In this document: positions 37,607 through 61,660 of the stretch, one piece after another | Numbering within the stretch: the first letter of the stretch is position 1 | How the letters are laid out: each line of letters starts with the position of its first letter | NCBI GenBank assembly: GCA_037951105.1 | Contig: JBAMJV010001862.1 | Span: 117,486 to 181,485 of the forward strand | Source: Echinarachnius parma | Taxonomy: Eukaryota > Echinodermata > Echinoidea > Clypeasteroida > Echinarachniidae | DNA: 64,000 nt | Direction: 5' to 3' | Made by a program: the position numbers and the translations under genes | The notes under the pieces: generated by a model | The model's input: the letters and a program-made list of their open reading frames with translations, nothing else | What the model was told of the DNA's origin: nothing | Databases searched by the model: none

Positions 37607-37696
37607 ACCTAGATGCACAAAGGAACAAGGTAAGAAAAAAAAACCAAAGGAAAAAAGGGAGGTTAGCATCCCCCCATAAGCACTCAATTATTATTA

Positions 37697-40236: not shown

Positions 40237-41330
40237 GTAGTAATATTATAAATACACCCATTAAACAAGTAATTTTCTTGTGAAACTGCTTCATGCAATA
40301 CATGCGTTTGTTAGGCCTATGTACCGCCGCGGTGCGCGCCGTTACATGAAAATAAAATCAAAGCGTTCTATGTAATTGATGATTTCACGAAATGACGGTG
40401 ATGCTAAAAGGACACTAGTTAACCCTTATTAATTTTTTAAAAGCAGCTGCAATAAGAGAAAACATTTTTTTACCTCGTAGTTCTAATAACTTTGTCTGTA
40501 CATCAATTAAACAAAACTTATTGCCGTATTTAGTGTCCATTCCAAGAATTTCATCCATGGGGGAAAAACCTCGTAGGTTTTACACGCGCGGCTACAAGCC
40601 GTCACTTCGTGAAAACAAAACGAAAGCGCGTCCTTGAATTTTGTGTTTTCACAAAATGACGCTTATTTTTCCAGCTCATTTACGCCTAAAAATATAATAA
40701 ATCATTAAAAAAAAAAAACATAGCAATAAACATAAGATATATTCTACCCAAGAATATAAAATTCATCCACCCATGATATATAAAAGATATCGAGATCATG
40801 GTTGGAATCTTTGAAAGCGATTTACTCAAAACGAACTTTCTCTTATTTGCGCGCTCATCCGTCACTTCGTGAAAACGATTACGAATTATTAAATACAACA
40901 CATTATTTCACATTACTTCACATTCTACACATGCACACTAAAACGACTCGGACGCAAGATGGCGCTACTCTGTTACATCGGTTTCGTATGAAGTCAGCGA
41001 GCAGCAAGTGATAACAATAAACCGGATTTCGTCCCTTTTCAGAAAAAAACGCACCATTCATGCCCTCAGTTTTCTGGCACCCGTAATCCCTCCTTTTACC
41101 AGAAAACCGGGATTTCGTGAAAGCCAAGGAAAGCCGCGGTTTTTCTAAATAACGCCTAAGTCGCCTGGGGCTCTTGTTTATTTACCGTATTTGTCGGTGT
41201 ATTACCCGCTCCGATGTATTAACCGCATGTTCAGGTTCAAAACAGGAACTCGTGACTATAGAGGAACTTGCCGCGTAAGCTTTTGAAAATTGGTTGTGCA
41301 CAGCTCTTCGTTAAATCAAGTAACTGTGAT
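40237..41330. other. Non-coding stretch with short repeats
   Basis: Repeated 'gccgt(c/t)act(t)cgtgaaaac' phrases (around 40340, 40595, 40855) mark a diverged dispersed family. No supported exon. Confidence 0.45.
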
Positions 41331-41886
41331 CAGCTCCGTGCGGAGCTGTGAATAACTGACGCTCGAAATTGTGAAGTGTTTTTTTGATGAGGTCTTTTAA
41401 CCCCTTTAATCAGATTATTGTTATATTTTGTTTAGTTTTAATACACCGTGAAACCCCCGTGTTTGGGCGCGCTACATAAAATAACTATGAAAAGAATGTT
41501 AACTTACTTGAAATTGATAATTTATGTCGATCGGTCCTTATTAGAATCCGACTTTCTTTCGATCGCTGCAATAATGACCGCCACCGTACTCAGCGCAAAC
41601 TCATCGGCATCGCACAGCGCATGCGCTATGCGATCGAAAAAAAGCCGGATTCTAACAGGGACAATCGACATAAATTATCGATTTGAGGTAAGTTATCATT
41701 CTTTTCATAGTAATTTTATGTAGCGCGCACAAATATGGGGGTTTCAGAGTGTATTAAAACTAAACAAAATACAAAAATAATCTGCTTAAAGGGGATAAAA
41801 CACCTCATCGCAGATCTACAAACATGTTCCTGCGAGATTTCGAGCGGTGTATATGCCAGGCTCTGTGCTACGCACAGAGCCTGGTT
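41331..41886. mobile_element. Foldback (palindromic) element with terminal hairpins
   Basis: Two arms of about 180 bp (near 41385-41560 and 41635-41820), in inverted orientation and highly similar ('tttgtttagttttaatacac', 'aatttatgtcgat', 'agaatccg'), flank a GC-rich 75-bp centre. Each outer end has its own small hairpin: CAGCTCCG-TG-CGGAGCTG at 41331-41348 and a 13-bp stem (CCAGGCTCTGTGC, loop TAC) at 41858-41886. The 91-aa open frame across it is an artefact of the palindrome. It ends less than 200 bp before the start codon of the next gene. Confidence 0.8.
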
Positions 41887-42436: not shown

Positions 42437-43457
42437 GTAAGTGCATTAGAAGTATACCAATGTTATCTGTCTTCAGCTCGCTTCTTTTACAGTAGTACCT
42501 TACTTGGAAAGTCGTGTCTTAAGAGGCAATATTTGTGAATGTTCTTCAATCCTGTAATGTGTAAATTGAAGAGGTTACTTACAAATCTACTTAACTGGCA
42601 AAATACTATTTTTACTAGTTCTGAGAAAAATGGGTTTAAAGATTTGAAAAATGCCTGCAGATCACAATTTTCATTATATTTCAATCAAAGTTGGTATAGT
42701 TATTAATATTAGCTATCCTAAAAGTAAGAAGACATTTTTTCCACTAATATGAGGGTTGTTGCTCTATCGTTTTCCAGAAACCAATTACCAGTTAAGTAGT
42801 TTTGTCTCTAAAATCATGTCCTTAAGTAGATCTTCCACTAACATTTTCTGAAAATTTAGTATAACAGTCCCCTGGATTATCCCAGCTGAACAAGTTCACA
42901 GTGCAATTATGTAATTAACTGTGTGTCAATGTTTGTGTGACTGTGTGGGTGTGTTGGAAAGTGTGTGTGTGTGTGTGTGTGTGTGTGTCTGTCGATTCGT
43001 CTGTCTGAGTAGGACTATGTGTCTCTGTTGTAACCTCCGCCAGCAGGTGAAACCTACAGTACGTTTGGTGAAGGTTATATCTTTGGTTCTGCATGTATAT
43101 GTTTGTGTCTGTATGTGTCTGTGCGTGACTGTGAGTGTGTCTGTGTGTGTCTGTGCGTGTCTGTTTGTAAGTCTGTCTGCAAAATAACTCACAAATGGAT
43201 TAAATGCTATTAAATTTAAGGAAGCAAATGAGATGAAAAATTGGCTACAATTGGTGTAAATTGTAAAATAACGTATGTCTGCTCAAATGAATATGTTTTT
43301 TTTTTATTATTATTCTCGCTAGATGTTAGTATTAATAGATATTTCTTTAAACTTTTTATTATTAGAAAATGAAGTCTTAATAATAGACATTACCTTTATA
43401 TACTATGATGAAGATTTTATTCTAAAGTCTTATTATTTAATGATTGTAATATTACAG
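42437..43457 (+). other. Intron 2 with TG microsatellites
   Basis: About 1 kb. It contains (TG)n at 42960-42989 and a TG/CTG-rich tract at 43105-43175, and its last roughly 250 bp are the first copy of the 700-bp repeat unit. Confidence 0.6.
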
Positions 43458-43586
43458 TGTGCAGCAGGTCGACTGTCTAGGCCTACCGGTCATCAAGTCC
43501 TTGGAAGCCCCCCTGACCCCCAACCCTCGGGTCCTCAGCCAGCCCCAAAGAGTGAGGATGTAGCATCCTCGAGACCTATGCAGGAG
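43458..43586 (+). CDS. Exon 3, repeat copy 1
   Basis: Acceptor atattacag, then 129 nt (43 codons, phase 0/0) encoding CAAGRLSRPTGHQVLGSPPD then PQPSGPQPAPKSEDVASSRPMQE, donor CAGGAG|gtatga. The exon is Pro/Ser-rich with a single Cys. Being symmetric, each copy can be added or skipped without a frame change. Because exon 2 leaves in phase 0, this joins in frame. Confidence 0.75.
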
Positions 43587-44156
43587 GTATGAATACCATT
43601 TCCTATGCTTAACCCATCGGATCCAGCCTGGGCTATTTCTTGATTGGGTTTATCCCTGGAAGGGGGGGGGGGGGGTTGCTCCCAGAGGCCCCTCCCCTGA
43701 TAGATCAAAGGGTAAATGATTGTCTGCTTGACTTAAAATATAAATTCATTTTTCTTGGTATGTCAAATGATTGATGCAATATGTCATCTAAAAATTGACA
43801 TTTCATTCTGTTTTTACAGTCATAATGCATTATTTCATGGTCAGTTTTTTATACTGTGTTTTTGTTTCAGACAAGTATTATACAATATATTATGTGAATG
43901 TGCTTTTTCATTGCTATTAAATTAATGGAAGCAAATGAGATGAAAAATTGGCTACAATTGGTGTAAAATAACGTATGTCTGCTCAAATGAATATGTTTTT
44001 TTTTATTATTATTCTCGCTAGATGTTAGTATTAATAGATATTTCTTTAAACTTTTTATTATTAGAAAATGAAGTCTTAATAATAGACATTACCTTTATAT
44101 ACTATGATGAAGATTTTATTCTAAAGTCTTATTATTTAATGATTGTAATATTACAG

Positions 44157-44285
44157 TGTGCAGCAGGTCGACTGTCTAGGCCTACCGGTCATCAAGTCCT
44201 TGGAAGCCCCCCTGACCCCCAACCCTCGGGTCCTCGGCCAGCCCCAAAGAGTGAGGATGTAGCATCCTCGAGACCTATGCAGGAG
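44157..44285 (+). CDS. Exon 4, repeat copy 2
   Basis: Identical in structure to 43458-43586, with the same acceptor and donor. One amino-acid change is seen: Gln to Arg (SGPRPAPK). Confidence 0.75.
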
Positions 44286-44859
44286 GTATGAATACCATTT
44301 TCTATGCTTAACCCATCGGATCCAGCCTGGGCTATGTCTTGATTGGGTTTATCCCTGGAAGGGGGAGGGGGGGGGGGTTGCTCCCAGAGGCCCCTCCCCT
44401 GATAGATCAAAGGGTAAATGATTGTCTGCTTGACTTAAAATATAAATTCATTTTTCTTGGTATGTCAAATGATTGATGCAATATGTCATCCAAAAATTGA
44501 CATTTCATTCTGTTTTTACAGTCATAATGCATTATTTCATGGTCAGTTTTTTATACTGTGTTTTTGTTTCAGACAAGTATTATACAATATATTATGTGAA
44601 TGTGCTTTTTCATTGCTATTAAATTAATGGAAGCAAATGAGATGAAAAATTGGCTACAATTGGTGTAAAATAACGTATGTCTGCTCAAATGAATATGTTT
44701 TTTTTTTATTATTATTCTCGCTAGATGTTAGTATTAATAGATATTTCTTTAAACTTTTTATTATTAGAAAATGAAGTCTTAATAATAGACATTACCTTTA
44801 TATACTATGATGAAGATTTTATTCTAAAGTCTTATTATTTAATGATTGTAATATTACAG

Positions 44860-44988
44860 TGTGCAGCAGGTCGACTGTCTAGGCCTACCGGTCATCAAGT
44901 CCTTGGAAGCCCCCCTGACCCCCAACCCTCGGGTCCTCGGCCAGCCCCAAAGAGTGAGGATGTAGCATCCTTGAGACCTATGCAGGAG
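44860..44988 (+). CDS. Exon 5, repeat copy 3
   Basis: Third copy of the symmetric exon. It shares Arg with copy 2 and additionally changes Ser to Leu (VASLRPMQE). The next exon of this gene was not found downstream. Confidence 0.75.
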
Positions 44989-45110
44989 GTATGAATACCA
45001 TTTTCTATGCTTAACCCATCGGATCCAGCCTGGGCTATTTCTTGACTGGGTTTATCCCAGGAAGGGGGGGGGGGGGTTGCTCCCAGAGGCCCCTCCCCTG
45101 ATAGATCAAA

Positions 45111-45554
45111 GTGAAAATGATGGTCTACTTGACTCTAGATTTGCTGAGTTGATTTTTCTTGGTTTGCCAGCAGAGTGGTGCAATATGGCATGTTAAAATT
45201 TGACATTTCATACAGTTCAAACACTAATAACACATTAAAAATGTAACAATAACAATTTGCATCATTTCTTACCAAATCTAGGGCGCTGATCATGATTGGC
45301 TCTTGTTTTCAAGATATTGTCAAATTCATATTTTATACATGTGTCTATGGGACTCTAATACTAACAATATAGCAATACACAGCTTAATTTGCTCAATTTT
45401 ATTTTCGATATTATCTGAATTGGGTGGCCTTGTTATACTTGTCATGATAGATGATATAAACCATCATATCTGTTATTCCAAATAATACATAAGCAAGCCA
45501 CTCGAATGGTCAGAGACAAGCAAAGATACCCAAAATACATATAGACAGTAAAAC
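45111..45554 (+). other. Stretch after the exon repeats, no exon found
   Basis: AT-rich. The 60-aa frame at 45303-45485 has no convincing splice sites. Presumably intronic for the secreted-type gene. Confidence 0.4.
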
Positions 45555-46135
45555 GTAGTTAACCCTTATAAGATTGGGAGGGGGGCCTAAAAAGTCCCCC
45601 CTCTACTTTTCGCACAATTATTCCACTACGCGAGATGCTCTCGTGGGGAAATTTTTTAGAGAATTTTCTTCCACTCATCACGCAACGTTTGAGACCAAAT
45701 TTGGCACACCCGCGCGTTCGGCCTTGAAGCCACCGCCCTTTGAAACAGAACTCTCTACCTGAAAAAAGGTCAAAAATATGATTTTGTATCCAAATTCAAT
45801 GTAAAACATGTTTTTCCAATTAATTAATAAGTAAACATTATTCTTACTTTTAAAGGCTAAAACTAATTGATTTTGGCATCAAAATATTTCCATGATTGTT
45901 CTCGACGAATTTCATAAATAAAACAAAGAAAAACAAAAGTTCAAAAAACAACGCAATACCTAAGAACTTTTATAAACAATACAATACATAAGAAATTGTT
46001 TTTTGGCAATTTTTTTCTCGCACAATCATTAAGTACATTGTAATTTGAGATTACAATCCACTCTTCCATCATGCATATTTTCGCAGCGATCGCGTGATCC
46101 ACGGCTGAGATCTTAGGCGGGGGCCTTTTTATTCC
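45555..46135. repeat. Interspersed element, GC-run family, copy 1
   Basis: It begins 'agttaacccttata', runs through a G-run, 'actcatcacgcaacgtttgagac', an AT-rich body and ends with 'gcgatcgcgtgatccacggc' 'tgagatcttaggcggggg'. It aligns along its length, same orientation, with 60860-61660. Partial copies are at 48156-48320, 48842-49010 and (inverted) 53441-53560. Confidence 0.75.
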
Positions 46136-47179: not shown

Positions 47180-47284
47180 ATGGATCACTTTAAGGTGCTT
47201 CCCCCTAAATCACTTTACCGCGAATATGTCAGTGGGCAATCACCTTCTGTTCGATCTCACTTTATCCGGCTATTATACGAACTT
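47180..47284 (+). CDS. Candidate first exon of integrase-OTU protein
   Basis: 35 codons from MDHFKVLPPKSLYREYVSGQ to HFIRLLYEL, then GTATGT. A canonical GT...AG stretch of only 29 nt (47285-47313, T-rich, ending cactatacag) separates it from KYGEEKEKRDRNPQ in the next block, and removal restores one frame. A 29-nt spliceosomal intron would be exceptional in an animal. Alternatives are a frameshifting microsatellite-type insertion, or that translation really starts downstream at 47359 (gccATGG, a strong Kozak context, MAPEVYDQ). Confidence 0.5.
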
Positions 47285-47313
47285 GTATGTGTGTGTTTTT
47301 TTTCACTATACAG

Positions 47314-48105
47314 AAATATGGGGAGGAAAAAGAAAAAAGGGACCGAAATCCTCAGGCCATGGCACCAGAAGTGTATGACCAAATTTTCACCGCGTTGAAA
47401 AACGGTCATCATGGATGCACTAGGGAGAGCAAATCTAAAGGAGGCCTTATGTGGCGGAAAGTCTATTCTCGACTGCATCGCTTTCCCGACATTTCCATTG
47501 AGACAGTTCGCAATCCAGTGACTTGCTGTGAAGAGGAACGGCTCGTTTTGCCCAACGGCCCAGGAAGATATCTTATTATTGTGCGAACTGATGAGATCGA
47601 TGAAATTTTGTCAAAATATTACATGGAAACACTAGGAGATGGAGCACTGAAACTAGAAAAACGTCTTAAGAAAATCTTCATTGGTTTAACCAAACGGATA
47701 ATTCAAGACTGGTTACATAAACGGCCCTCTGTACAACAAAATAAACCAATATTCAAGAATGTGGCTCCTCTGGTTCCGATACGTGCACAGAAGGTGATGG
47801 AAAGAAATCAGATCGATTTAGTAGATATGAGAAGTATGTCTGAATATGATCCAGCGAACCATTATCAATATGTCCTCGCGATAATAGATGTTTTTAGTCG
47901 GCATCTGTGGCTGAGACCTCTGCAAGGCAAGTCTTCAGAGGAAGTTGCGCACCATCTTCAAAATCTCTACGAAACATTTGGTACGCCAAAAATAATCCAG
48001 TCGGATCAAGGACCAGAGTTCAAAGGGGCAGTAAGAAGGCTTATGGCAAGATTGAATGTCAAAGTTATTATGAGTGCACCATACAGGCCACAATCACAAG
48101 GGAAG
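47314..48105 (+). CDS. Integrase core exon (DD of DDE) of integrase-OTU protein
   Basis: 264 codons, phase 0 in and out, ending CAAGGGAAG|gtatgc. The N-terminal part (VYDQIFTALKNG...YYMETLGDG...) corresponds to the pre-core region, but the usual HHCC zinc residues are not conserved. The rve integrase core starts near residue 195 of the assembled protein: first catalytic Asp in QIDLVDM (about 203), IIDVFSRHLWLRPL, second Asp in IQSDQGPEF (about 266), then APYRPQSQGK. Catalytic Glu is supplied by the next exon. Similarity is to Gypsy-type integrases as in Ginger1 transposases and KRBA2/GIN-like host genes. It could be a domesticated gene or a transposase; no flanking inverted repeats were found. 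Confidence 0.85.
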
Positions 48106-48524
48106 GTATGCATTTCTACCTAACGACATGAACATGCAAAACTTAACGATTGTCTTAACCCTAACTTACCCGGGCTATTTTGAGAGGTGATATTCCTGGG
48201 GGGGGGGGGGCATTATGGCCCCCCCTTCAGATCTCGGCCGCGGATCGCGCGATCGCCGCGAAAATTTGCACGCGAGTAGAGTATCATGTAAACTACACAA
48301 TTGCATATTCAGATTTTTTAACAAAATTATAATTGATTTTTAATTAATTAATTATGCTGATATATGCATAAATTCATATTTTTAGCTCTAAATCACTAAA
48401 AAATTGTGTTCAAATTTAGTGGCCAGAAGCCAATTTTGGGTGGCCCTGGGCGACTAGGCCACTGCTAATGTCGAGCCCTGCTGTAATCATTTACATTTAT
48501 CCTGGTTGTCTTCTCATTTCTTAG
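48106..48524 (+). other. Intron carrying inserted repeats
   Basis: A 419-bp intron containing a partial GC-run family copy (48156-48320, with 'ggccgcggatcgcgcgatcg') and the 'tgtcgagccctg' repeat end (48415-48480). Acceptor catttcttag. Confidence 0.7.
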
Positions 48525-48666
48525 TTGGAGCGAAGCCATCCTGTGTGGAAAGCGAAACTGCGGTTGATGCTGGAAGAACAGACCAAGGAAGATGAGACTT
48601 TTGATTGGTCCCAAGCACTTCAACAGGTCGAGAGGCTGTATAATGAAGCTTATCACACCTCCCTTA
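48525..48666 (+). CDS. Integrase exon with catalytic Glu
   Basis: 142 nt beginning LERSHPVWKAKLRLM, with Glu (about residue 301) 35 positions after the second Asp, completing a D,D,E triad. It continues DETFDWSQALQQVERLYNEA and YHTSL, the helix typical after the integrase core. It ends in phase 1 at CTTA|gtaagaac, and the split codon gives Asn with the next exon. Confidence 0.85.
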
Positions 48667-48841
48667 GTAAGAACTGTATTTTTTTTTCAAAACTTATGTT
48701 CCAAACCGAAAATGAACTGAACTTCTCCAGGTTTTTTGACAGTGCTGTTATTAGTCAAGTTGCTCTAGCCCAAATCAGAGTCTGGAGTCTATGTTCTGAA
48801 TCACTGTAGACCTAGTCCAAGTCAATGACATCCTAGTCCGA

Positions 48842-49010
48842 GTCTTAACCCTAAAAAGACTGGGGTATTTTCGAGGCTAGAAAAACTGGGGGGATCGAGG
48901 CGTAAAAGGCCCCCCCCCCCCCCCCCCCCCCCAAGATCTCGGCCGTGGATCGCGTGATTGCCGCGAAAATTTGCACGCTAGTAGATTGAAATGTAATCTC
49001 AAAGATGGTA
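48842..49010. repeat. Partial GC-run family element
   Basis: It starts 'cttaaccctaaaaagactgg', contains about 34 C and then 'agatctcggccgtggatcgc' 'gtgattgccgcgaaaatttg', matching 48156-48320 in the same orientation. Confidence 0.7.
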
Positions 49011-49075
49011 AAGTTAGTTTTTCAAGAAAACTTTCCAGATTAATTTATTATGCTAATTTATGCGTAAATTTCTTA

Positions 49076-49567
49076 TTATGCCTCCGCCAACGAAGTGGCC
49101 GGAGGCATTATGTTTTCGGGTTGTCCGTCCGTACGTACGTCCGTCCGTCCGTCCGTACGTCCCGTTTTCGTTCTCGCGATATCTCAAGAACGGGGTGACA
49201 ATGATCTGATTAGATTTTGGGGTTCATGAGGTGAAAGGTCAAGGTCGTAGGACTCAATATATGTGAAAAATATCCTTGCGATATCTCAAGAACCGTTTGA
49301 CTGATCAATTTCAAACTTGGAATGAGTTACATACACATCAGGGTGGCAATGATCAGATTTGATTTAGGGGTCATGAGGTCAAAGGTCAAGGTCACATGAC
49401 TCAGCATATATGCAAAAATGGCTTGTAATGGCAAAATCTCGAGAACAAAAAGTTTGGGGGTCTATGGTCAAGGTCACAGAACTCAAAATATATATATGAA
49501 GGAAAAAAAATTCAGTGCACGTTATTTTGGGCTAGATATTGAAAATTGCGTCATAGCGGAGGCATAA
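49076..49567. mobile_element. Inverted-terminal-repeat element, TTATGCCTCCGC ends
   Basis: About 490 bp with ends TTATGCCTCCGC / GCGGAGGCATAA. Inside are (GTCC)n-like 'gtccgtccgtccgtccgt', 'cgatatctcaagaac(g/c)g' twice and 'ggtcatgaggtcaaaggtca'. A non-coding element sitting in an intron of the integrase-OTU gene. Similar sequences are, to my knowledge, common in marine invertebrate genomes. Confidence 0.7.
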
Positions 49568-50109
49568 TTTTCGACTGCGCGCAGTCGAAGATCCATCTAG
49601 ATTCTTGCTATAATTCCGATAATTCCGAGTTGTATGAATACACAGCCTAAGCTTGATTTTGGAGTATGTTGGTAGGTTGAAAGTTTAAGTTCATACTCAT
49701 TAAATATGCAAAAATGGTTTTCATTCAGTAGTGGTTGATGGATGGTACTACTGTAGCTATCAAAATACAGCTCAAGTTCATTATCTAAGGATATTGCTCA
49801 AAAGTCATAGCTCATTAGACATGTTCGGATTTCGGAATCTCACACCCCTACCCTGTATAGATGTGAGTAACCCCCCCCGGACAAGTTGCCTTTGGGTAAA
49901 ATTGCTGTAGGTCAAGTCGCCTTCGTTGAGCCGAGGGCGACTGGTCTCGAACGATTCTCATCTTACCCCAAAAAGTTTTAGTTGCTTCAAAGCATATAAT
50001 TGCCACTTGAAACGTAAAATTTTGCCATCAGCTTCATCATAAATAAAGAGCGACTGTTTCCGTTTTAACCCATGTTTATGAATGTATAAAATAATATTCT
50101 GTTTGCATG
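49568..50109 (+). other. Intronic stretch
   Basis: Part of the 2.4-kb intron between exons 48525-48666 and 51087-51220. A C-run near 49870; nothing coding. Confidence 0.5.
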
Positions 50110-50640
50110 ATAACTCTCGTAATACCTAACCGAATACCGTATACCGAAGAATGTATACCGAATACTGTATACCGTATACCGAATACCATATATCGAATAC
50201 CGCAAACCCAATACCGCAAACCCAATACCGAATGCCATATACTGTATAGTATCCCGTATACCACATTCCGAATACAGTATACCAAATATCGTATACCATA
50301 AATACTGTATACCGAATACCGAATAAATACTGATTTATTTATACCGAATACCGTATATCGTATACCGAATAGAGTATACTGTATACCGTATACCGAATAC
50401 CGTATACACTATACCGAATAGTGTGAATACCGTATTATAGCCTATGGTATAACTATACCGTATATTGAGTACCGTATACCGAATACCGTATACCGATTAC
50501 CGTATACCGAATACCGTATACCGTATACTAAATACTGTATACAAATATTTATACAAATATACTGTATACCGAATATCATATACCGTATACTGAATACTGT
50601 ATACCGTATACCGAATACTGTATACCGTTACAAAGTGTTG
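50110..50640. repeat. Degenerate short-unit satellite (ataccgaat / ataccgtat)
   Basis: About 500 bp made almost entirely of 7-bp-like units ATACCGA, ATACCGT, ATACTGT in irregular order. On the other strand the units read TCGGTAT/ACGGTAT, so the block can fold on itself at many places ('ccgtatacc', 'ccgaatac'). Confidence 0.9.
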
Positions 50641-50884
50641 TGGTCTCGACCCCAGTCTCGACCCCGAGACCGAGACCTTGAGGTCTGAGACCGAGACCTT
50701 GGACTTCGAGACACGAGACCCTGGCCTTCGAGACCGAGACCGCAACCCTTGAGACCGAGACCGAGACCCCGAGCTTCGAGACACGAGACCCTGGGCTCCG
50801 AGACCGAGACCGCAGCCCTCGAGACCGAGACCGAGACAGAGACCATGAAAATAGCCCGAGACCTTGAGACCTCGAGACCACAAC
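50641..50884. repeat. GAGACC minisatellite
   Basis: About 240 bp of (GAGACC)(GAGACC/TTGAGACC/CTTCGAGACACGAGACC) units directly adjoining the satellite at 50110-50640. One larger unit containing 'gagacacgagaccctgg' is duplicated. The Ser/Arg/Gly-rich frames across it are artefacts. Confidence 0.9.
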
Positions 50885-51086
50885 ACTGTTATAAAATCAC
50901 TATTTACAGTGGATTTGTAGCATTTTGTCTAGGGGGGCACATTCCACCCTGCACCCCCCCCCCCTTCTTCTTGCTCTCATTTTCTGCACATTTGAAGTTT
51001 GGATTATATGTAACATTTGAATTAAATGTTATTCTGTCCGTGGCGTGTGAGAGCTCTTGTTAAATGTATGAATTTTTGTTTTTCAG

Positions 51087-51220
51087 ATATGTCTCCTTTT
51101 GAGGTGTTCTTTGGTCGAAAGTCAAATCGTGAAGCGAACATGTTGCAAGTTGGCCAGGGCACAGACGAGGATGACATTGAAGTTGAGATGGAGCGTCTTC
51201 CTGAGGGCCATACAACAGAG
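51087..51220 (+). CDS. Post-core exon of integrase-OTU protein
   Basis: Acceptor gtttttcag, 134 nt completing Asn (A + AT) and encoding MSPFEVFFGRKSNREANMLQ, then VGQGTDEDDIEVEMERLPEG and HTTE, donor ACAGAG|gtgggt (phase 0). 'NMSPFEVFFGRKSN' is the well-conserved block after the integrase core in Gypsy/Ginger-type proteins. Confidence 0.82.
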
Positions 51221-52709
51221 GTGGGTATTGATTGAACACTACATCTTAATGCTGTGTGCCAGACCTTCCTTTATCTCTGTGTTAGTCTGGCTTAGGTAGT
51301 TCTGTAACAGAATCAAATTTAGATTAGAATTAATCATGATCGGTTTATCTCTAGAAATGATAGGACAGGAAATAGGCCTTTAATGATTTATATCGACTGT
51401 TCACTCCAGATTGAAGCTTCATCAATCATATTTGATATACATAATCCAGAAAATCTTATTTAATCATGAAGCCATTGTACCATTTCAAACAAATACATCA
51501 TAATAGAACGCTAGCCACGCAATTTTTCAAAATGGCGGCCATTTTTCAAGATGGCAGCCATTAGCGCCATATTTTTGGCTTTCTTGTTTTTTTCTTGATC
51601 TTCTTTCCAGATTTTGGTGATATTTACACCGTTTCTGACATTTATGAGGATGTATTTTTCGATTCTGTAAAAAAAAAGACTAACTAGAAAGGGCACTCCG
51701 TAGAGTGCATACCTTCCCCAATGCCACTTATTTCTATTTGCCATGAGGATGTGGGGAACAATAGGCCTATTTTGGTTATACATGTTCTTTAACTCGGAGG
51801 ATAATACTTTCAATGGATTTTGGGGTCAAAGGTCACAGAGGTTATTTTGTGAAAATGTGGTTTTGTGCACTATCTTACACACTATTGGACATATGAACTT
51901 CAAACTTGGTGTGATGGTAGAGTATAACAAGACATGTCTGTTGATGATTTTGGACAAAAGGTCAAAGGTCAGGGAGGTCATTATAATGTAAAATATTACA
52001 TTTTTGCTTATTTCCCAAGAGTCAGATAATCTATCAAATTCAAACTTGGCATAAGGTTTTAGTTTATCAAGCAAAATACTATTAAATATTTGCTGACGTT
52101 TTGGAGTCACAAGTTCAAAAGTCTCAGATCATGGAAGTTATTATGTTGTAGAAATATGATTTACTGTAAAAAGAGAGTCACATAACCTATAAAATGCATA
52201 ATTGATAAAGGACACAGTTTATCAAGACAAATATTTAGTGGCCGGTGTTTTGGGTATGGTAAAGTAAAAGGTCAAAGTTCACATAGGTATTAGAAATAAA
52301 TTGTGATATTAGAATAAACTTTTATAGTTGATATCTTATGGACCATTTAACATATCCGCTTCATATTTGGTTTATGCAAGGGTTCAGTATAACAAGCCAA
52401 ACTTTTTGGGGCATGAGGTGTCATGGAGTTAATTATGTTGTGAACAGTTTATCTATTATAAAAATTAAACTTATCAGTTTTACACTTGGCAAGAGTGAGG
52501 ACTAGTTGTGCCATGAGTCCATCCAGAGGATGTGGTTGACTTGAAACAAAAGTGCAATTCTGCCACACCCCTACAATTCATGCATTTGAAAAATAATACT
52601 TGTTTACATGAAGTATATATGCATCGTGTATGTGTGCACTGCTGAAGTAGGGCTCCCGTGATGTCACAACAGTTAGGCTTGTGAGCTCATTAGCATAAAT
52701 TTCACTTAA

Positions 52710-53269
52710 AGAGGAATTCCACCCCAGAAATGTGATGTTTGCTATAAAATGAAGTGAATATGAAGAATCATGATCGAAAATCTGAGCTAAAACGGTAGAG
52801 CAATAAAAAAGTTATGTCAGGATGAACTTTGCTCTGATTTTTAGTATCGTTCGAAATTGCTATCGATCGTGACGTCACTTGCGAGCTGCAGCCATTTTGA
52901 CTTCTACATGAAACTTTTACAAAATTAAAATTTTCTTAATAACAAAGCAAATTTATGAGCTTACACATTCTCGAGAGGTTGGCACACCGATATTCTTCTA
53001 TGAATTTGTGAAAACAAGCAGAGAAAAATTAATTTTTAGCAACGAAAATGAGAAATAAGTGTATTTTCATGTACTAAAGCAATGGCGAGTTGCTCGTCAA
53101 TGATGTTACATATGGCGGCAATTTTGAAACGCTCGCTCATTACCACATGATGTTCAAATAGGTATAACTCTCGCGTTTCTTGTCCGATTTTGATCAAACT
53201 TTCAACAATTATGCCTCTTATTCTGCTTATTCAAATAACGAATAGTTTTATCAGGCCCGGAATACCCCT
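52710..53269. mobile_element. 560-bp MITE with TTAA target duplication
   Basis: Flanked by TTAA on both sides (52706-52709, 53270-53273). Ends AGAGGAATTCC / GGAATACCCCT are inverted with two differences. TTAA duplication fits piggyBac or Kolobok superfamilies. Non-coding. Confidence 0.75.
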
Positions 53270-53440
53270 TTAAAAATGCACACTTTTTAAATGAAATTAC
53301 AAATCATATTGATGAGATTTTTAGTTTTTATTTGCGTAGCTTGGTCGAGTCGCGTAACAAGAAAAACATATTCAAAATAAAAACATCAGTTAAGTTTTTT
53401 TGTAATCAAAATCAATGATGATTTTTTTTTTTTACATTTG

Positions 53441-53560
53441 AATATACAATTGTGTAGTTAACATGATACTCTACACGCGTGAAAATGTTTACGGCGATCC
53501 GCAGCCAAGATCTGAAGGGGGGCCATAATGCCTGGAAGTCAGGGCGAAAGCAGGGTATTC
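53441..53560. repeat. Inverted partial copy of the 48186-48315 repeat
   Basis: The reverse complement matches 48186-48315 over about 120 bp ('actacacaattg', 'agagtatcatgt', 'ggcgatc', 'gaaggggggccataatgcc'). The two copies flank exons 48525-48666 and 51087-51220 in opposite orientation. Confidence 0.7.
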
Positions 53561-53769
53561 TCAGGGTGCGCCAATTAAAAAGCAGCTTGTTTGTTTCAAG
53601 TCTCTCATATTACCCAGTGGGATTAGGTGACATGTTTATACTGGACAAGATTTTACAATCAACTAAAGCCAATTTCCATGATTGTGACTTTTTCTACCTT
53701 TGTATAATAGAATATTTAGACTTCCGGAAAAAAAACCTCTTGTTTTGCTGCAGTTAAGACAAGGCTCCA

Positions 53770-54010
53770 TGCAAACTTTTTTAGTCAGTTGCCCCTCTGG
53801 GCCACCAAAATTATGGCATTTTATTTTCTGATGACCCAAACGGAGAAGTTGGTGGCCCAGAAACAAAGCTTAACATAGTTATATACATTCATGGCAATAA
53901 TTTTTGCTGCCCGATCAGGCCACCAGAATAAATTTTTTTCTCAAATCTGGTAGCCCGAAGCTGAAGCCAATTTTTGGTGGCCCTGGGCCACTGCTTATGT
54001 CGAGCCCTGG
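53770..54010. repeat. Interspersed repeat ending 'tgtcgagccctg'
   Basis: Two internal 'ggtggccc(a/t)(g/t)' blocks and the terminal phrase 'cactgcttatgtcgagccct', shared with 48415-48480 and 18045-18070. Confidence 0.6.
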
Positions 54011-54301
54011 TTAAGATAATTTTTATATTTACATCACGATTGAAGTGATAGGTTGAAATCATTTGAATCGTGATTTAAATCACTTATTATGGGGGAAAAA
54101 AAATCACCAACACAGCATGTAACCATGTTTGCCATTAGCAATTTGGAATCATTTGTTCATGCATATATCATTATGTTCATGTTATTTATTTATTACAGTG
54201 TCAACTTGGTCCAGAGTAGAAACTTCCGCTGGATGAAGTTTGAGCACCAGATCATTGATGTGCTAGTACATGTTTTTCTCTTTTTTTCTTTCACGCTGCA
54301 G

Positions 54302-55894
54302 GAAAATGTTCTATTTTGTGAGGGAGACACATCAGAAGTTGAGGAGCACTTGGAGCAGGTGAGGCTCTTGAGGTCAGATGCAAGAGATGCTGCCGACCGT
54401 GCGGACTCCTATATGATTGCAAGGTTTCTTGCTAAAAACCCACCATCTTCGTACAATGTGGGAGATGCTGTGTTCATTAAGGTAGTAAACCCCAAGAGTG
54501 GGGTTTCGAGGGGTGGAAATCCACTCAACAGGCCTTTGGCCTGGAAAGGTGTGATTGTGGATGAAAGAAATGATATTTTTCGCTACAAAGTTAAGTACAG
54601 TGACGCATCCAATAAGACGATAGTTGAATGGCGCTCGGTCAATGACATCACATCCATAACGAGGGAGGAAGAGTTTCAAAGGCAGTCTGTTGCCCGAGGG
54701 CAAGTAAAGACCCAATGTGCATGCCGTCCAAGCTGTAAAAGGAAGCCTGCAAGTCATTGTGTACGGAATATGAATGCATTGTGCTGTCGAAAAAATGGTA
54801 AAAACTGTCACTTTCACAAAACAACACAAAACACTTTCACGAAACCATCTTCTAAATCTAATTGCCTGAAGTATAATCTTTCTGAAAAAAACATTGTCGG
54901 TAAAGTCATGAGCGATTTTTATAGTGATGTGAAGATACTGAAGAATCGTCCTAATAACCAAATTACTTTGGAAAGGAATGTGAGGAGTGCAGGGCTTAGG
55001 GTAGAGGAAACACCCAAAGACGGGAATTGCATGTTTCATGCTCTAGCTACTCAAATCCGAAGAACTGGGCTAGATATTTCCCACAGTGAGTTGAGAGCTC
55101 GGATTGTTCAGTATTTAAATGTAAATAGATGCTCTACCAATGGGTCTGATTTGAGCGATTGGGTTCAAGGTGGCAATTTTGACAATTACTTGAGTCGGAT
55201 GGCTAGGGATGGGGAATGGGGAGATGAAATTATTTTGGTTGCAGTGTCCAATATGTTCAATGTTGAAATCACGATTATATCTAGTTTGCCTGGGACATCA
55301 ATTCGTATTTTATCCCCAAGAGGGCAAAGTTCAGAAAGTTTGCCAATCCTCCTCCTTGGACATCTGTCAGAGCTCCACTATGTGAGTCTGATACCAGAAA
55401 ATGATACTGACCCTCATGTAGCAAAATTACATAACAGGGCAAAAAAACTGACAAGAAAACAGATACTTAAACATGTTCAATTACCAAATAATGACTTTAA
55501 CAGTGATAGTCCATTACCTGCTAATATAGTTAGATTGGGGGTAAATGATCATTCAAGATTTTGGGCAGCTCATCCTGAGCAAGGAAGTGTTGAAACTAGA
55601 AATAATCACTTCCTTGTTTCAGATGAGCAGATGGACAATTTCGACAATTTCCTCTGCAACCAACGTAAATATGAAAGAGAAAGTCGTAGGTCTATTGTTT
55701 TCATTGATATTGTTTTTGTTTTTTGGCTGTTAGTTGCTGGAAAGGAAACTTTGTTGAAGAAAAAGAATATCGTATTAGGAACATTCATATACTTAAATGA
55801 TTATGATGCTGAATCATACATGGCCTTTTATGATACTCTCATTGAAGAAAAGGAACAATTACTCAGAGCAACTTTGAATAAGTCAAAATGTTAA
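54302..55894 (+). CDS. C-terminal exon: SH3-like, Cys-rich and OTU protease domains
   Basis: It enters in phase 0 after ctgcag and ends in TAA; about 530 codons. Residue numbers refer to the assembled protein of about 905-921 aa. An SH3-like integrase C-terminal segment (443-505: YNVGDAVFIKVVNPK...LAWKGVIVDERNDIFRYKVKY) is followed by a Cys/His-rich motif (530-562: CACRPSC...HC...LCC...CHFH), then an OTU cysteine protease domain. In the latter, DGNCMFHALA holds Asp631 and nucleophile Cys634, GEWGDEIILVAVSNMFNVEI follows, and catalytic His750 is in ELHYVSLIP. OTU proteases cleave ubiquitin chains; substrate here is unknown. A T-rich 48-nt GT...AG stretch (55686-55733) near the end may be a mini-intron. 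If retained it stays in frame and adds a hydrophobic SIVFIDIVFVFWLLV. Confidence 0.85.
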   Translation, partial: ENVLFCEGDTSEVEEHLEQVRLLRSDARDAADRADSYMIARFLAKNPPSSYNVGDAVFIKVVNPKSGVSRGGNPLNRPLAWKGVIVDERNDIFRYKVKYSDASNKTIVEWRSVNDITSITREEEFQRQSVARGQVKTQCACRPSCKRKPASHCVRNMNALCCRKNGKNCHFHKTTQNTFTKPSSKSNCLKYNLSEKNIVGKVMSDFYSDVKILKNRPNNQITLERNVRSAGLRVEETPKDGNCMFHALATQIRRTGLDISHSELRARIVQYLNVNRCSTNGSDLSDWVQGGNFDNYLSRMARDGEWGDEIILVAVSNMFNVEITIISSLPGTSIRILSPRGQSSESLPILLLGHLSELHYVSLIPENDTDPHVAKLHNRAKKLTRKQILKHVQLPNNDFNSDSPLPANIVRLGVNDHSRFWAAHPEQGSVETRNNHFLVSDEQMDNFDNFLCNQRKYERESRRSIVFIDIVFVFWLLVAGKETLLKKKNIVLGTFIYLNDYDAESYMAFYDTLIEEKEQLLRATLNKSKC

Positions 55895-56261
55895 CCCATA
55901 GACAGCAATGTGTGGTCTTGCATTCACATTGAATCTTTTGTTTCGTGGCGCCTTATGACTTTTTGTCTCGCCTGAACAACGTATCCTATCAACTTCGAAC
56001 TTGGAATAATCATACAGTCTATTATAAAGCCAAATATTTGGTGTTTTGGGGTCATGAGGTGTTTGGTCAGAGGTCATGGAGGTAATTTTGTTGTGAAAAT
56101 ATGCTGTAAAAATATGTGATTTTTGGTTATTTTTGCAAACTTGGCATGCCGTAAGGATACCTTCTATTAAGCGAAATATTTGATTGTGTTTTGGGTCATG
56201 AGGTGTTAGGACAAAGATCATGGAGGTCATTGACAATTTGACAATATTATTTTTAGATACC
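55895..56261 (+). other. 3' flank of the integrase-OTU gene
   Basis: No clear AATAAA close to the stop. It contains a 'gggtcatgaggtgt' repeat pair (56050 and 56195) related to the 51690-52560 family. The foldback element follows at 56262. Confidence 0.45.
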
Positions 56262-58919
56262 TGGGTCAATCCACGTCAAATCACCCAATTTTCAGAGAAA
56301 TGTTCACCCGACCCCCTTCAAATTTGCTAAAATTCGCACCAAATGTTCCCCCAAGTGTCTCACGGAAAATTCTGAAATATTTTGCTTCAAGGTCAAACGG
56401 TTGCTAAGATACGGCCTCACCTAGCAACCAATGCGCGATTTTTAAAAAGTGTTAGGAAAAAATCAGCCATTTTCAACTGCCCCTCACAGCTTAAGTGAAT
56501 GAGGGAGCTAGCTAAATTTTTGTAAGCTGAAAGAACTTTATTATCTGTAAAAGTAAAAAAAAAAAAAAATCTGCTACGAAATTTCATTTTCGCGTACGAG
56601 GTCATCAAAAATGACCTTAAGTCGTAAAATTTAAATTTTCGGACAGTGTTTAGGGGTCAATAAAACAAATATGACAACAAATAAAGCAAAAGTAAGAATG
56701 GAAATTAATTTAAAACAACCTTCTCCAAAAGCACACAAAAAATCAGCACGAAAAATTGTTCCGTTTTCCTGTAGGGCGCCCTCAAAGTCTGAACATTTCA
56801 GAAATCAGCAAAGTTGAAGGTCAAAGTTCACCTTTAGTCCAACCTAGTAGAAGCATGAAAATTGGTGGAATGATAGACATTCATCTATATTTTAGGGTAC
56901 CACCAGCGAAAATTTGCTTTCGAAATGTTATCTAGCATAAAAACGCACACGAAAATCAGCTTAAATACTGTTACGCAACCATTTATTGCCCTGAAGTGGT
57001 TTTCAGGGGTTTTTGAAAGCCTCTGTGAAAAAAACTAATCATGCTGATAGGCTCATTTTAGCATGTCTAGTAGTCCTTAATGGGTACTTCAAGAAAATGC
57101 ATACATTGGGTAGGTTTTCTTACAGCATTGACTTAAAAAATGCATCTGAAAATGGTTAGAAAACACGTTTTTTATAGTTATTGTCAATTTTCTGGTAACA
57201 TGCCTTTGTTTACAGGCACTTTCAAACGTCAATATTTGCAAGATGGAAATTGACATAAGGCTCATATCTTCTAATCTGGTAGACAGTCATCTATATTTTA
57301 GGGAACTATCCGTGAAAATGTGCTCCCGAAATGTTATCTAGTAGAAAAATGCTCACAAAAATGGGGTAAAACACCATTACGCTACCGTAACGCTACCATT
57401 TATTGCCCTCAAGTGGTTTTCAAAGGACTTTGAAAGGGTCTTGGGAGAAAAGTATTAATGCTGCTAAGCTCATTTTTGGCATGCCTGGTAGTACTCCATG
57501 GGTACTTCAAGAAAATGCATATCTTGGGTAGGTCTTTGTACAGCATTGACCTTGAAAATGCATTCGAAAATGGTTAAAAACACGTTTTTTACAATTGGTC
57601 TATTTTCTGGTAGTGTGCATGTTTTTACAGGCACTTTCAAACTTCAATATCTTTGAGATGTAAAATGGTTCATAGCTCATATCTTAAAATCTGTTAGACA
57701 TCCATCTATATTTTAGTGAACAACTAGTTACATTTTGCTTCCAACATAATATCTAGCATAAAAATGCACACGAAAATGAGGTTAAACACTGTTACGCAAC
57801 TTTTTAATGGCCTGAAGTGGTTTTCAGGGTATTTTGAAAGCTTCTGTGAAAAAAATGTTCATGCTGCAAGCCTTATTTTAGCATTTCTGGTAGTCCTCTA
57901 TGGGTACTTCAAGAAAAAGGATAGATTGGGTAGGTTTCATACAACATTGACCCAAAAAATGCATCTGAAAATTGTTAAAAAACATGTTTTTTTTAATTAT
58001 TCGTCTATTTTCTTGTAAAAAAACGTTTTTTAATCATTTTCAGATGCATTTTCAAGGTCAATGCTGTACAAAGACCTACCCAATGTATGCATTTTCTTGA
58101 AGTACCCATTCAGGACTACCAGACATGCTAAAATGAGCCTATCAGCATGATTAGTTTTTTTCACAGAAGCTTTCGAAAACCCCTGAAAACCACTTCAGGG
58201 CAATAAATGGTTGCGTAACAGTATTTAAGCTGATTTTCGTGTGCGTTTTTATGCTAGATAACATTTCGAAAGCAAATTTTCGCTGGTGGTACCCTAAAAT
58301 ATAGATGAATGTCTATCATTCCACCAATTTTCATGCTTCTACTAGGTTGGACTAAAGGTGAACTTTGACCTTCAACTTTGCTGATTTCTGAAATGTTCAG
58401 ACTTTGAGGGCGCCCTACAGGAAAACGGAACGATTTTTCGTGCTGATTTTTTGTGTGCTTTTGGAGAAGGTTGATTTAAATTGATTTCCATTCTTACTTT
58501 TGCTTTATTTGTTGTCATATTTATTTTATTGACCCCTAAACACTGTCCAAAAATTTAAATTTTACGACTTAAGGTCATTTTTGATGACCTCGTACGCGAA
58601 AATGAAATTTCGTTGCAGATTTTTTTTTTTTTTTTTACTTGTACAGATAATAAAGTTCTTTCATCTTACAAAAATTTAGCTAGCTCCCTCATTCACTTAA
58701 GCTGTGAGGGGCAGTTGAAAATGGCTGATTTTTTCCTAACACTTTTTAAAAATCGTGCATTGGTTGCTAGGTGAGGCCTTTCTTAGCAACCGTTTGACCT
58801 TGGGGCAAAATATTTCAGAATTTTCCGTGAGACACTTGGGGGAACATTTGGTGCAAATTTTAGCAAATTTGAAGGGGGTCGGGTGAACACCACTGGTTGA
58901 TTTGACGTGGATTGACCCA
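56262..58919. mobile_element. 2.66-kb foldback element with 0.9-kb inverted arms
   Basis: Arms 56262-57173 and 58021-58919 are inverted and highly similar, with tips TGGGTCAATCCACGTCAAAT / its complement. The middle (57174-58020) contains further diverged direct copies of the inner part of the left arm, marked by 'ctatatttta' at 56884, 57291 and 57705 (spacing 407 and 414 bp). No transposase frame and no certain target duplication were found. A non-autonomous DNA element of unassigned superfamily. Confidence 0.88.
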
Positions 58920-59059
58920 CCTATCAATTTAAAAGTTAGTATGCAGGTATATGATTACAATTCACTTGTTTGATTATTTTTTTGGGTCAAAGCTATCATG
59001 ATTATTTCAAACAGTAATTCAGCTTTGTACAGTTATTGATAATGCAATCGGCAGAGGTA
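58920..59059. other. Spacer
   Basis: AT-rich, nothing seen. Confidence 0.4.
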
Positions 59060-59815: not shown

Positions 59816-60859
59816 TATGTAAAATGATAGATGAGCATGCAAATACATTATACCATATCAATTTCAAGAGCAATAACTTTGATTTTGTATGTTATGTTTA
59901 TTATATTACCATTGTAAATATGTGACCACTTACCCCAAAACCCCCAAAAAGTTGACAAACATGAATTTGGATTTTTTAATCTAGCTGGAAAGAGTAGACG
60001 CTAAGCTTTAAAATGATATATAACTCATCAAATGTGGACACTCCGAACCTATTCAACAAAGTGATTAAATGTAGGAGAGTGGGAAGGTCTAGTTTTACAG
60101 AATGAGGAGAAAAGAGGCTCTAAAGATTAGGGTCACTCAGGCGCGTAGTGCGGAGGAGCTATCCATTGAATCCATTAACTCAACTTTGGCTTCGTTTTAA
60201 GACTCGCAATTTGAAACGGTCGATAGAAGAAAGTTTATGCTTTCAGGTAAAGTAAAGTTTTAAATGTGATTTTTCAGCAAAAATGACATACTTTGGCTCG
60301 TACTGGAGAATCATATACCGCGACTTTATGGGGGTTTTGGTGTAAGCGGTCACATATACTATTGGATTCTGAAATCAAGGGATAGACTGAATTTATGCTG
60401 TAATAGAAATCATCTTATATGCAAGTATGAATGAGCCTTATTGCACAAAGATTGTTTGTATGATTGTTTCGGACCATTATCAATGAATGTAAAGTTATAA
60501 AAATGTATAGTATTTTGTACTGATTGTTTGCAATTCTTACTTGTTTTTGGATTTAAGTAATATCATTCACCTTAACTTTTATAAATATTTGCTACTGTTA
60601 TGAAATATTTATTCATTAAGTTGAATAATACCTTATACATATTCTTATTCCGAGATCCATTTCAGCCTACAGTGTGGTGAATGATGAGTAGGATAACTCC
60701 TTCATGTACTAATAGGGCATTGTAAAGCTTGTGAGTATAATATATCAGGGGTTATATTTTTAGTGACGTATTAACATATATTTGGATGATTTTGATTTTG
60801 CTTCCTTTTTGAGGTAAAAAAAGCAATGTCGACCGTTAAAAGAAGAATGTAACTTGCCA
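59816..60859. other. Non-coding stretch
   Basis: AT-rich with no supported exon. 'tgtgaccacttaccccaaaa' (59922) and 'gggggttttggtgtaagcgg' 'tcacat' (60329-60355) form an inverted pair bounding about 430 bp, a possible diverged MITE. Confidence 0.45.
59922..60355. mobile_element. Candidate MITE with TGTGACC...GGTCACA ends
   Basis: Left end TGTGACCACTTACCCCAAAACCCCC and right end reverse-complement TGTGACCGCTTACACCAAAACCCCC agree at all but two positions over 25 bp (given here in two parts: TGTGACC(A/G)CTTAC, then (C/A)CCAAAACCCCC). Flanks 'aaata' and 'tatac' give no clear duplication. Confidence 0.65.
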
Positions 60860-61660
60860 TTTCCATGTATTGTTTAAACCCAAAAAGGGCAGGGGGGGGG
60901 GGGGTGGAATCCGCCCCCCCCCCCCCCACGATTCGCGCAATAATTCGCGAAATGCTACGCCGCAAGAGTTTGTGACTTTTTTTCTTTCACTCATCACGCA
61001 ACTTTTGAGACAGAATTCGGCGCGCCCGCGCGTAAGATCACAAAGCCACACCCCTTCAAGAAAATTTGTCAAGCCCAAAATTGCTCAGAAACTTGATTTT
61101 ATTTCAAAATCCAATGCAAATTGTGATTTCAACCTAAATTGACATAAATTGCATTATTTTCACTAAAACTAATCAAAATAATTTAATTTTTGTGTCTTTG
61201 TGGCTGAAAAATGAAAAGGAATATTTTCCTGCTAAAAACAATAGAAAACAAAAGGTCAAAAAAGCAAAGAAATACATAAGACATTTAAAAAACAATAAAA
61301 TACATAAGAAATTATTCACGAAATCCGATTTTTTTTTCTATAATATTCTTAAAGGTGTTAAACTAAATATACTGGCCCAAAATCAGAAAGCTTGGAGTTT
61401 TTTTAAATTGATTTATAAAACAAAATATGATTTATGCATATATTAGCATAAATTAATTAATATAAAATATTAAAAGAAAAAAAATGAAAATCTAACAATA
61501 CAATCTTGTAGAGTACATTTGCCTCTACCGGCGTGCAAAGAAATTTTGTGGCGATCGCGCGATCGACGGCTGAGATGTGGGGGGGGGGCGGAAACCACCC
61601 CCCACCCCCACCCCGGTCTTGAATTCGCCAAAAAAGCCCGGCCCTTTAAGGGTTTATATG
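60860..61660. repeat. Interspersed element, GC-run family, copy 2
   Basis: Termini 'aaacccaaaaagggc' and (reverse complement) 'aaacccttaaagggc' are inverted, with G- and C-runs next to both. The body aligns with 45555-46135 ('actcatcacgcaac(g/t)tttgaga', 'aatacataagaaatt', 'gcgatcgcgcgatcgacggc'). The best-preserved member in the window. Confidence 0.75.

Follow-up and report, generated by a model that had tools for sequence, protein, structure and literature searches.

The gene at positions 47180–55894 of a 64,000-nucleotide stretch of the Echinarachnius parma genome (assembly GCA_037951105.1, contig JBAMJV010001862.1, forward-strand positions 117,486 to 181,485; hereafter the window) is very probably the transposase of a recently mobile giant DNA transposon of 28.5–29.0 kb, in which an integrase is fused to an OTU protease. 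The element has precise ends bearing 62-bp terminal inverted repeats (TIRs), occupies many insertion sites, for one of which the empty counterpart is present, and is bordered by 6-bp target site duplications (TSDs) with CG at the centre; divergence among the copies is very low, and several of them carry an open transposase frame. Judged from these sequences, transposition would be very recent. An original prediction, made from the letters of the window, had proposed here either a Ginger1 transposase or its domesticated descendant; a TIR-bounded integrase-OTU transposase is indeed encoded, whereas the domesticated variant did not hold.

Copies and boundaries of the element

From the genome (1.2 Gb, 14,790 contigs), exon 2 of the gene was recovered with 100% protein identity at eight places on eight contigs, the next best match showing 56% protein identity (145 of 907 candidates scored). 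At the DNA level, two of the seven other copies deviate by a single base. Exon 5 was found complete at five places; at a sixth, a frameshift divides it. The two copy lists overlap in part: contigs C12034, C7247 and C3647 end before exon 5 is reached, and C14073 contributes exon 5 only. Identity with the other copies extends far past the gene and stops abruptly at position 41228, in the window as well as in the seven other exon-2 copies, while the sequences left of this base differ from copy to copy, the window's own flank being found again only in C12034. The right end of the window copy lies beyond the window, the contig stopping at position 64000. The left part of the element is delimited as follows.

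41222–41227, no strand: left target hexamer ACCGCA with CG at its centre; the right partner is outside view in the window copy
41228–64000, plus strand: left 22.8 kb of the integrase-OTU transposon, left end common to the window and seven other exon-2 copies
41228–41289, plus strand: left TIR of 62 bp, beginning TGTTCAGG, its first 47 bp recurring unchanged at the right end of each complete copy

In three copies the whole element lies on a single contig, with lengths of 29,043 bp (C2397), 28,815 bp (C7017) and 28,456 bp (C3186). All three possess the 62-bp TIRs with 57 of 62 positions identical and the first 47 without any difference, and the termini read TGTTC, i.e. with C as fifth base, giving TG..CA ends. 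These repeats were detected solely through comparison of copies. Searching for inverted repeats around the gene (43–60 kb) returned 38 pairs, none of them terminal among the 25 longest. The statement of the original prediction that TIRs are lacking is consequently incorrect: they lie far outside 47180–55894 and were missed because the element, at about 29 kb, extends past the window on the right.

Probing the genome with the terminal 113 bases revealed at least 29 left and at least 25 right ends, one of the latter cut by a contig end (40 of 53 left and 40 of 54 right candidates scored, hence lower bounds). Twenty copies have both ends, and these fall into three of 28.5–29.0 kb, one of 16.9 kb and 16 of 1.7–4.3 kb. 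The short copies match both end probes at 100% and are probably internally deleted, as far as their ends allow this to be deduced. Two of them, C5363 (17818–21811) and C3678 (123136–125078), have both flanks in common at unequal lengths of 3,994 versus 1,943 bp; these are possibly alleles with different internal deletions, and the length difference fits an abortive gap repair after excision. The 16.9-kb copy (C713, 317594–334498) shows two right ends 1.4 kb apart, each followed by the same 20 bases, and contains an integrase-like frame, which we read as a tandem duplication or an assembly artefact with a nested element.

Target sites and insertion signature

An exact 6-bp TSD is present in 14 of the 20 copies with both flanks read, in all 14 cases with CG at the centre, whereas duplications of 4, 5, 7 or 8 bp were found in none of the 20. 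Already among the first 11 flank pairs seven were matched, corresponding to a P of about 1.6e-8 at a chance match rate of 0.034 among these targets. Central CG is likewise found in 25 of the 27 listed left flanks (at most 26 distinct sites), 16 of which read ACGT; across the window, by comparison, CG has a frequency of 0.026. The centre is CG also in each of three right flanks whose left counterpart was not read (C11608, C5584 and C5206), the first of these being the same as the right flank of C14332. The two left flanks lacking CG read TG and CA at that position, which we interpret as products of deamination of a CpG, presumably a methylated one; for the second, CG has been kept in a sister contig representing the same insertion site. 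Overall, the target consensus is the palindrome NACGTN. A 4-bp TSD, at first suggested by two copies sharing only ACGT in their flanks, was ruled out by the 20 copies, and a 1-bp duplication was considered and dropped. As a check, the original prediction had suggested a search for inverted repeats of 40–270 bp accompanied by 4-bp duplications; the 62-bp TIRs lie in this range, but the duplication is one of 6 bp.

Ends and duplication can be seen directly in C3186, where the element has inserted into one arm of a palindromic repeat, the untouched arm representing the empty site. Joined C3186 flanks align to the other arm over 334 bp (300 left, 34 right) at 99.7% and gap-free, and TACGTC occurs once at the empty and twice at the filled site. 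In the left flank of C3186, a further related copy is likewise continuous across the junction, its gap being at another position.

The transposase gene

The gene is made up of five exons.

47180–47284, plus strand: exon 1 (putative, doubtful), directly followed by a 29-nt intron
47314–48105, plus strand: exon 2, N-terminal region and integrase core with D203 and D266; alternative ATG at 47359
48525–48666, plus strand: exon 3, with the catalytic E301
51087–51220, plus strand: exon 4, in which the integrase region ends
54302–55894, plus strand: exon 5, SH3-like segment (by eye), Cys/His-rich segment, OTU domain (D631, C634, H750), C-terminal tail and stop

Joining these across 47180–55894 results in a continuous frame of 921 codons with no inner stops, all four introns being of the GT..AG type. 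The single spliced frame had been correctly foreseen by the original prediction, including the exact numbering of all six residues (D203, D266, E301, D631, C634 and H750). As intron 1 comprises only 29 nt, unusually short for an animal intron, exon 1 and residues 1–50 of the model are doubtful; from the next in-frame ATG at 47359, codon arithmetic gives a protein of 871 aa. The predicted fusion of integrase and OTU is borne out by Pfam matches above the curated cut-offs to rve (residues 197–294, E 2.3e-14) and OTU (residues 630–722, E 6.4e-13), a third match, to rve_3, being weak and under its cut-off. Likewise, in sequence searches against the PDB, exon 2 retrieved the prototype foamy virus (PFV) integrase (E 1.2e-8) over a stretch including D203 and D266, with E301 encoded by exon 3 and outside this query, and exon 5 retrieved OTUD3 (E 2.4e-5) over a stretch including D631, C634 and H750.

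Pattern searches for zinc-binding residues gave no H-H-C-C arrangement within residues 1–202 and no CxxC in the whole model; the stretch immediately N-terminal of the integrase core belongs to exon 2 and is unaffected by the uncertainty of exon 1. Neither GPY/F nor YPYY was found by pattern search of the transposase model, in which a degenerate GPY/F-like segment is possible. In PHROGs, exon 2 matched six families, five of them named transposase and one of unknown function, and exon 5 gave a single match (E 0.048). One scan for viral relatives of exon 5 yielded three pattern matches, none of which was confirmed.

Divergence and coding changes

Right of a tandem array within the element, i.e. 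at window positions from 45300 on, the copies differ from the window by only 0.06–0.20% substitutions. Five substitution sites separate the window from every other copy covering them, one resulting in A363V in exon 4; some of these window-private differences may stem from mistakes in its contig sequence. Among the copies, six synonymous and three non-synonymous coding differences were counted, with 76% non-synonymous changes expected (P about 0.009 versus neutrality). All five exons are open in the window, C3186 and C7593, and no lesion is present in the covered parts of C12034 (exons 1–4) and C3647 (exons 1, 2 and part of 3).

Several observations weigh against a recently active transposon with functional copies. 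First, six of the 20 copies are without an exact 6-bp TSD, matching at five of six positions in C5363 and C3678, four in C1347 and C7017 and three in C954 and C2397, a group that includes two of the three full-size copies. The single differences in C5363 and C3678 look like later point changes because the flanks show one common site, and C1347 and C713, the latter with an exact duplication, have the left flank in common but not the right one. Second, the gene is damaged in three of eight copies, by a frameshift deletion in exon 5 (C2397), a 4-bp TTAA insertion in exon 3 compared to the other copies (C7247) and a deletion spanning the exon 3 acceptor (C7017). TTAA is the target of piggyBac-type elements, and the C7247 insertion may be a footprint. 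Three of the eight, C12034, C7247 and C3647, are covered over only part of the exons. Third, according to a table of single-nucleotide polymorphisms, the window copy is a mosaic that resembles C12034 in its left and C7017 in its right portion, which likely stems from recombination or from the assembler switching between near-identical copies; such mosaicism is also a likely reason for the mismatched TSDs of C2397 and C7017. Finally, the selection test is based on nine differences only, and leaving out three that are private to the frameshifted C2397 changes the ratio to two non-synonymous of six (P about 0.035, calculated by hand).

Internal structure and neighbouring sequence

Besides the transposase exons, the following parts were distinguished within the element.

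41386–41809, no strand: subterminal inverted repeat with 153-nt arms (88%)
43205–45237, no strand: tandem array with a unit of about 700 bp, showing several offset matches and differing in copy number among element copies
56256–58925, no strand: nested foldback repeat with long inverted arms (up to 618 nt at 97%)
59922–60354, no strand: nested insert of about 430 bp resembling a miniature inverted-repeat transposable element (MITE), also in C7017 and absent from C2397, C3186 and C7593

The foldback repeat is also present in all four other copies that reach that far in the fetched sequence. From the distribution of the 430-bp insert, the remaining copies ending before that position in the fetched sequence, it follows that this is a passenger carried along by the element. 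MITEs in the introns had been taken as favouring a host gene; at least one MITE in the element has travelled with the transposon. Five related MITE-like segments (ATCTCGGCCGCGGATCGC...) lie in both orientations at 46044–46123, 48217–48326, 48924–49003, 53424–53522 and 61485–61610, and intron 3 contains degenerate tandem repeats of 7 bp (ACCGTAT) and 70 bp at 50129–50837.

Along the element, surveyed in separate stretches from the window and from the right portion of C2397, there is no open reading frame (ORF) of more than 175 aa other than the transposase exons and one ORF antisense to exon 5. Scanning ten other ORFs of the element against Pfam gave no match above cut-off, a procedure that genes in small exons could escape.

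Just left of the transposon, at 32618–37687 on the minus strand, long overlapping open frames within a G+C-rich stretch (0.49–0.59) match a reverse transcriptase (E 1.2e-20) and, both just under cut-off, an RNase H-like domain and a tyrosine recombinase (Phage_integrase, E 1.5e-5). This looks like a DIRS-type retroelement.

Relation to known elements and alternative explanations

As described by Bao, Kapitonov and Jurka in 2010 (passages of PMC2836005), Ginger1 elements are 2.6–7 kb long, have TIRs of 40–270 bp and 0–4 introns, end in TGTNR, generate 4-bp duplications of CCGG or CCGT and encode a transposase with an H2C2 finger, GPY/F and YPYY motifs and a C-terminal OTU or Ulp1 domain. The E. 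parma element agrees with these in its integrase-type DDE core, C-terminal OTU domain, introns, TIR length and CG-centred target. In contrast, it is 28.5–29.0 kb in size, duplicates 6 instead of 4 bp and ends in TGTTC instead of TGTNR, while H2C2, GPY/F and YPYY were not found in its transposase by pattern search. Moreover, only three of the 27 left flanks show the inner four target bases typical of Ginger1 (CCGG or CCGT/ACGG). We therefore refer to it as a Ginger1-related giant integrase-OTU transposon, without assigning it to Ginger1 in the strict sense.

A wider comparison is offered by parts of PMC10045372, where TSDs of 4 bp are given for Ginger1, 4 or 5 bp for Ginger2 and 6 bp for both Polinton and GingerRoot, the latter two also lacking the HHCC motif, and where TA..TA ends are ascribed always to IS3EU and mostly to GingerRoot. 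Hence, a GingerRoot/IS3EU member that has gained an OTU domain has to be weighed, which would account for the 6-bp TSD, the absence of HHCC and the integrase-type transposase, TG..CA ends occurring occasionally in GingerRoot as well (PMC10045372). We consider this origin unlikely, given the mostly TA..TA ends of these groups versus TG..CA here and the fact that fusions to OTU or Ulp1 are a Ginger1 feature in the account of PMC2836005, while an OTU fusion goes unmentioned in the corresponding passages of PMC10045372; the comparison is with the description of GingerRoot in that source.

Less probable by a clear step is a Polinton/Maverick derivative devoid of its polymerase. According to passages of PMC6431247, the integrase and protease of Polintons may derive from Ginger elements; like the E. 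parma element, Polintons are large and combine a 6-bp TSD with an integrase without HHCC (the latter two according to parts of PMC10045372). Against this, no ORF large enough for the protein-primed family B DNA polymerase of Polintons was seen along the element, in a survey that did not extend to a polymerase distributed over small exons, and the protease of the element is an OTU.

Besides, its integrase falls outside the group formed by three Polinton-like integrases of the same genome. The underlying tree comprises 14 rows from this genome only (two of 16 candidates, L035 and L036, were left out, as the extracted frame was not an integrase), with no Ginger1 reference among them and with the labels Polinton-like and Gypsy-like presumed on the basis of motifs and frame length. 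Polinton-like integrases (three rows, 100/100) and Gypsy-like integrases (nine rows, 82/91) are both separate from the transposase, which joins a long-branched integrase-OTU relative on C914 at 93/93, below the mark of 95/80. This distant relative (L032, 1492–3236) shows 31% integrase identity, N instead of D at the second catalytic position and an only partly matched OTU domain, and might be an old remnant or a changed gene.

The reading favoured by the original prediction, a long-standing host gene that arose by domestication of a Ginger1-type transposase, retains hardly any probability. Multi-exon structure, intact residues and repeats in the introns would agree with it; the exon 2 protein, however, is identical at eight places, and the copies share their ends in different flanks, possess TIRs and TSDs, include an empty site and diverge by merely 0.06–0.20%. 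Multiple near-identical copies with TIRs, which the same prediction had named as the mark of an ordinary transposon, are exactly what the genome contains, and for the window copy, being neither single nor TIR-free, the host-gene reading is rejected. True descendants of this kind are known from Gin-1 and Gin-2 (passages of PMC2836005) and Imagin (passages of PMC12863088), which share transposase ancestry and multi-exon organization with the E. parma gene. In Imagin, however, the DDE motif is defunct and inverted repeats are lacking, whereas the DDE triad is intact here and the element is mobile and multicopy.

Equally negligible are recent segmental duplications or haplotigs in place of transposition: large blocks are mostly 99.5–99.9% identical outside the tandem array and some contigs look allelic (C1861/C12034 and C713/C1347 by left flanks, C5363/C3678 by both, C14332/C11608 by right flanks), yet in all other cases the flanking sequence switches sharply at one and the same base on either side of the element, where TIRs and 6-bp TSDs are found; together with the empty site, this excludes duplication as a general account.

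Outside animals, the integrase DNA transposon Styx of Zymoseptoria resembles the element in its TIRs, 6-bp TSDs and recent activity, and a 6-bp stagger is therefore not unique to the latter; as described in parts of PMC10853768, Styx differs in being fungal, 7.9 kb long and equipped with four open reading frames, with an OTU domain going unmentioned there. Within open-access full texts, the integrase-OTU Ginger was found described only in PMC2836005, and large Ginger1 families may be held in Repbase; a giant Ginger is likewise not described in passages of the giant-transposon review PMC6431247.

Proposed mechanism and significance

Taking the E. parma element as a recently mobile integrase-OTU transposon, its movement would depend on one multi-exon transposase, in which a DDE integrase of the retroviral/Gypsy type is fused to an OTU cysteine protease. 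The integrase would pair the two TIRs, cut beside the TG..CA ends and join these to an NACGTN palindrome with a 6-bp stagger, the repair of which would give the duplication. Such a process would resemble cut-and-paste, and aborted repair of the donor gap could generate the many copies of 1.7–4.3 kb having the same ends. As for the OTU domain, its conserved catalytic residues and the repair role suggested for Ginger1 (passages of PMC2836005) point to a removal of ubiquitin from the transposase or from repair and chromatin proteins at the insertion site as the most likely function, which would stabilize the former or ease repair.

We consider it possible, though on balance doubtful, that the element represents a separate lineage of superfamily rank, comprising giant integrase-OTU transposons that have retained the OTU fusion of Ginger1 but lost the zinc finger and the GPY/F module, insert with the 6-bp stagger known from Polinton and GingerRoot, and target CpG dyads, perhaps methylated ones; if true, a multi-kilobase cargo carrier would be active today. 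In any case, the findings indicate that an integrase transposon with a single recognizable gene can mobilize about 29 kb of mostly non-coding DNA, very recently and in an animal, which is four times the length of the longest Ginger1 in the 2010 description (passages of PMC2836005). A lack of TIRs within a few kilobases of a transposase gene is thus no proof of domestication. With its 6-bp stagger at a CG-centred palindrome and the missing zinc finger, the element connects Ginger1 with the integrase transposons generating 6-bp duplications, and the determinant of TSD length becomes testable on one protein. In the same way, the open integrase-OTU copies make the older idea that deubiquitination aids transposition accessible to experiment.

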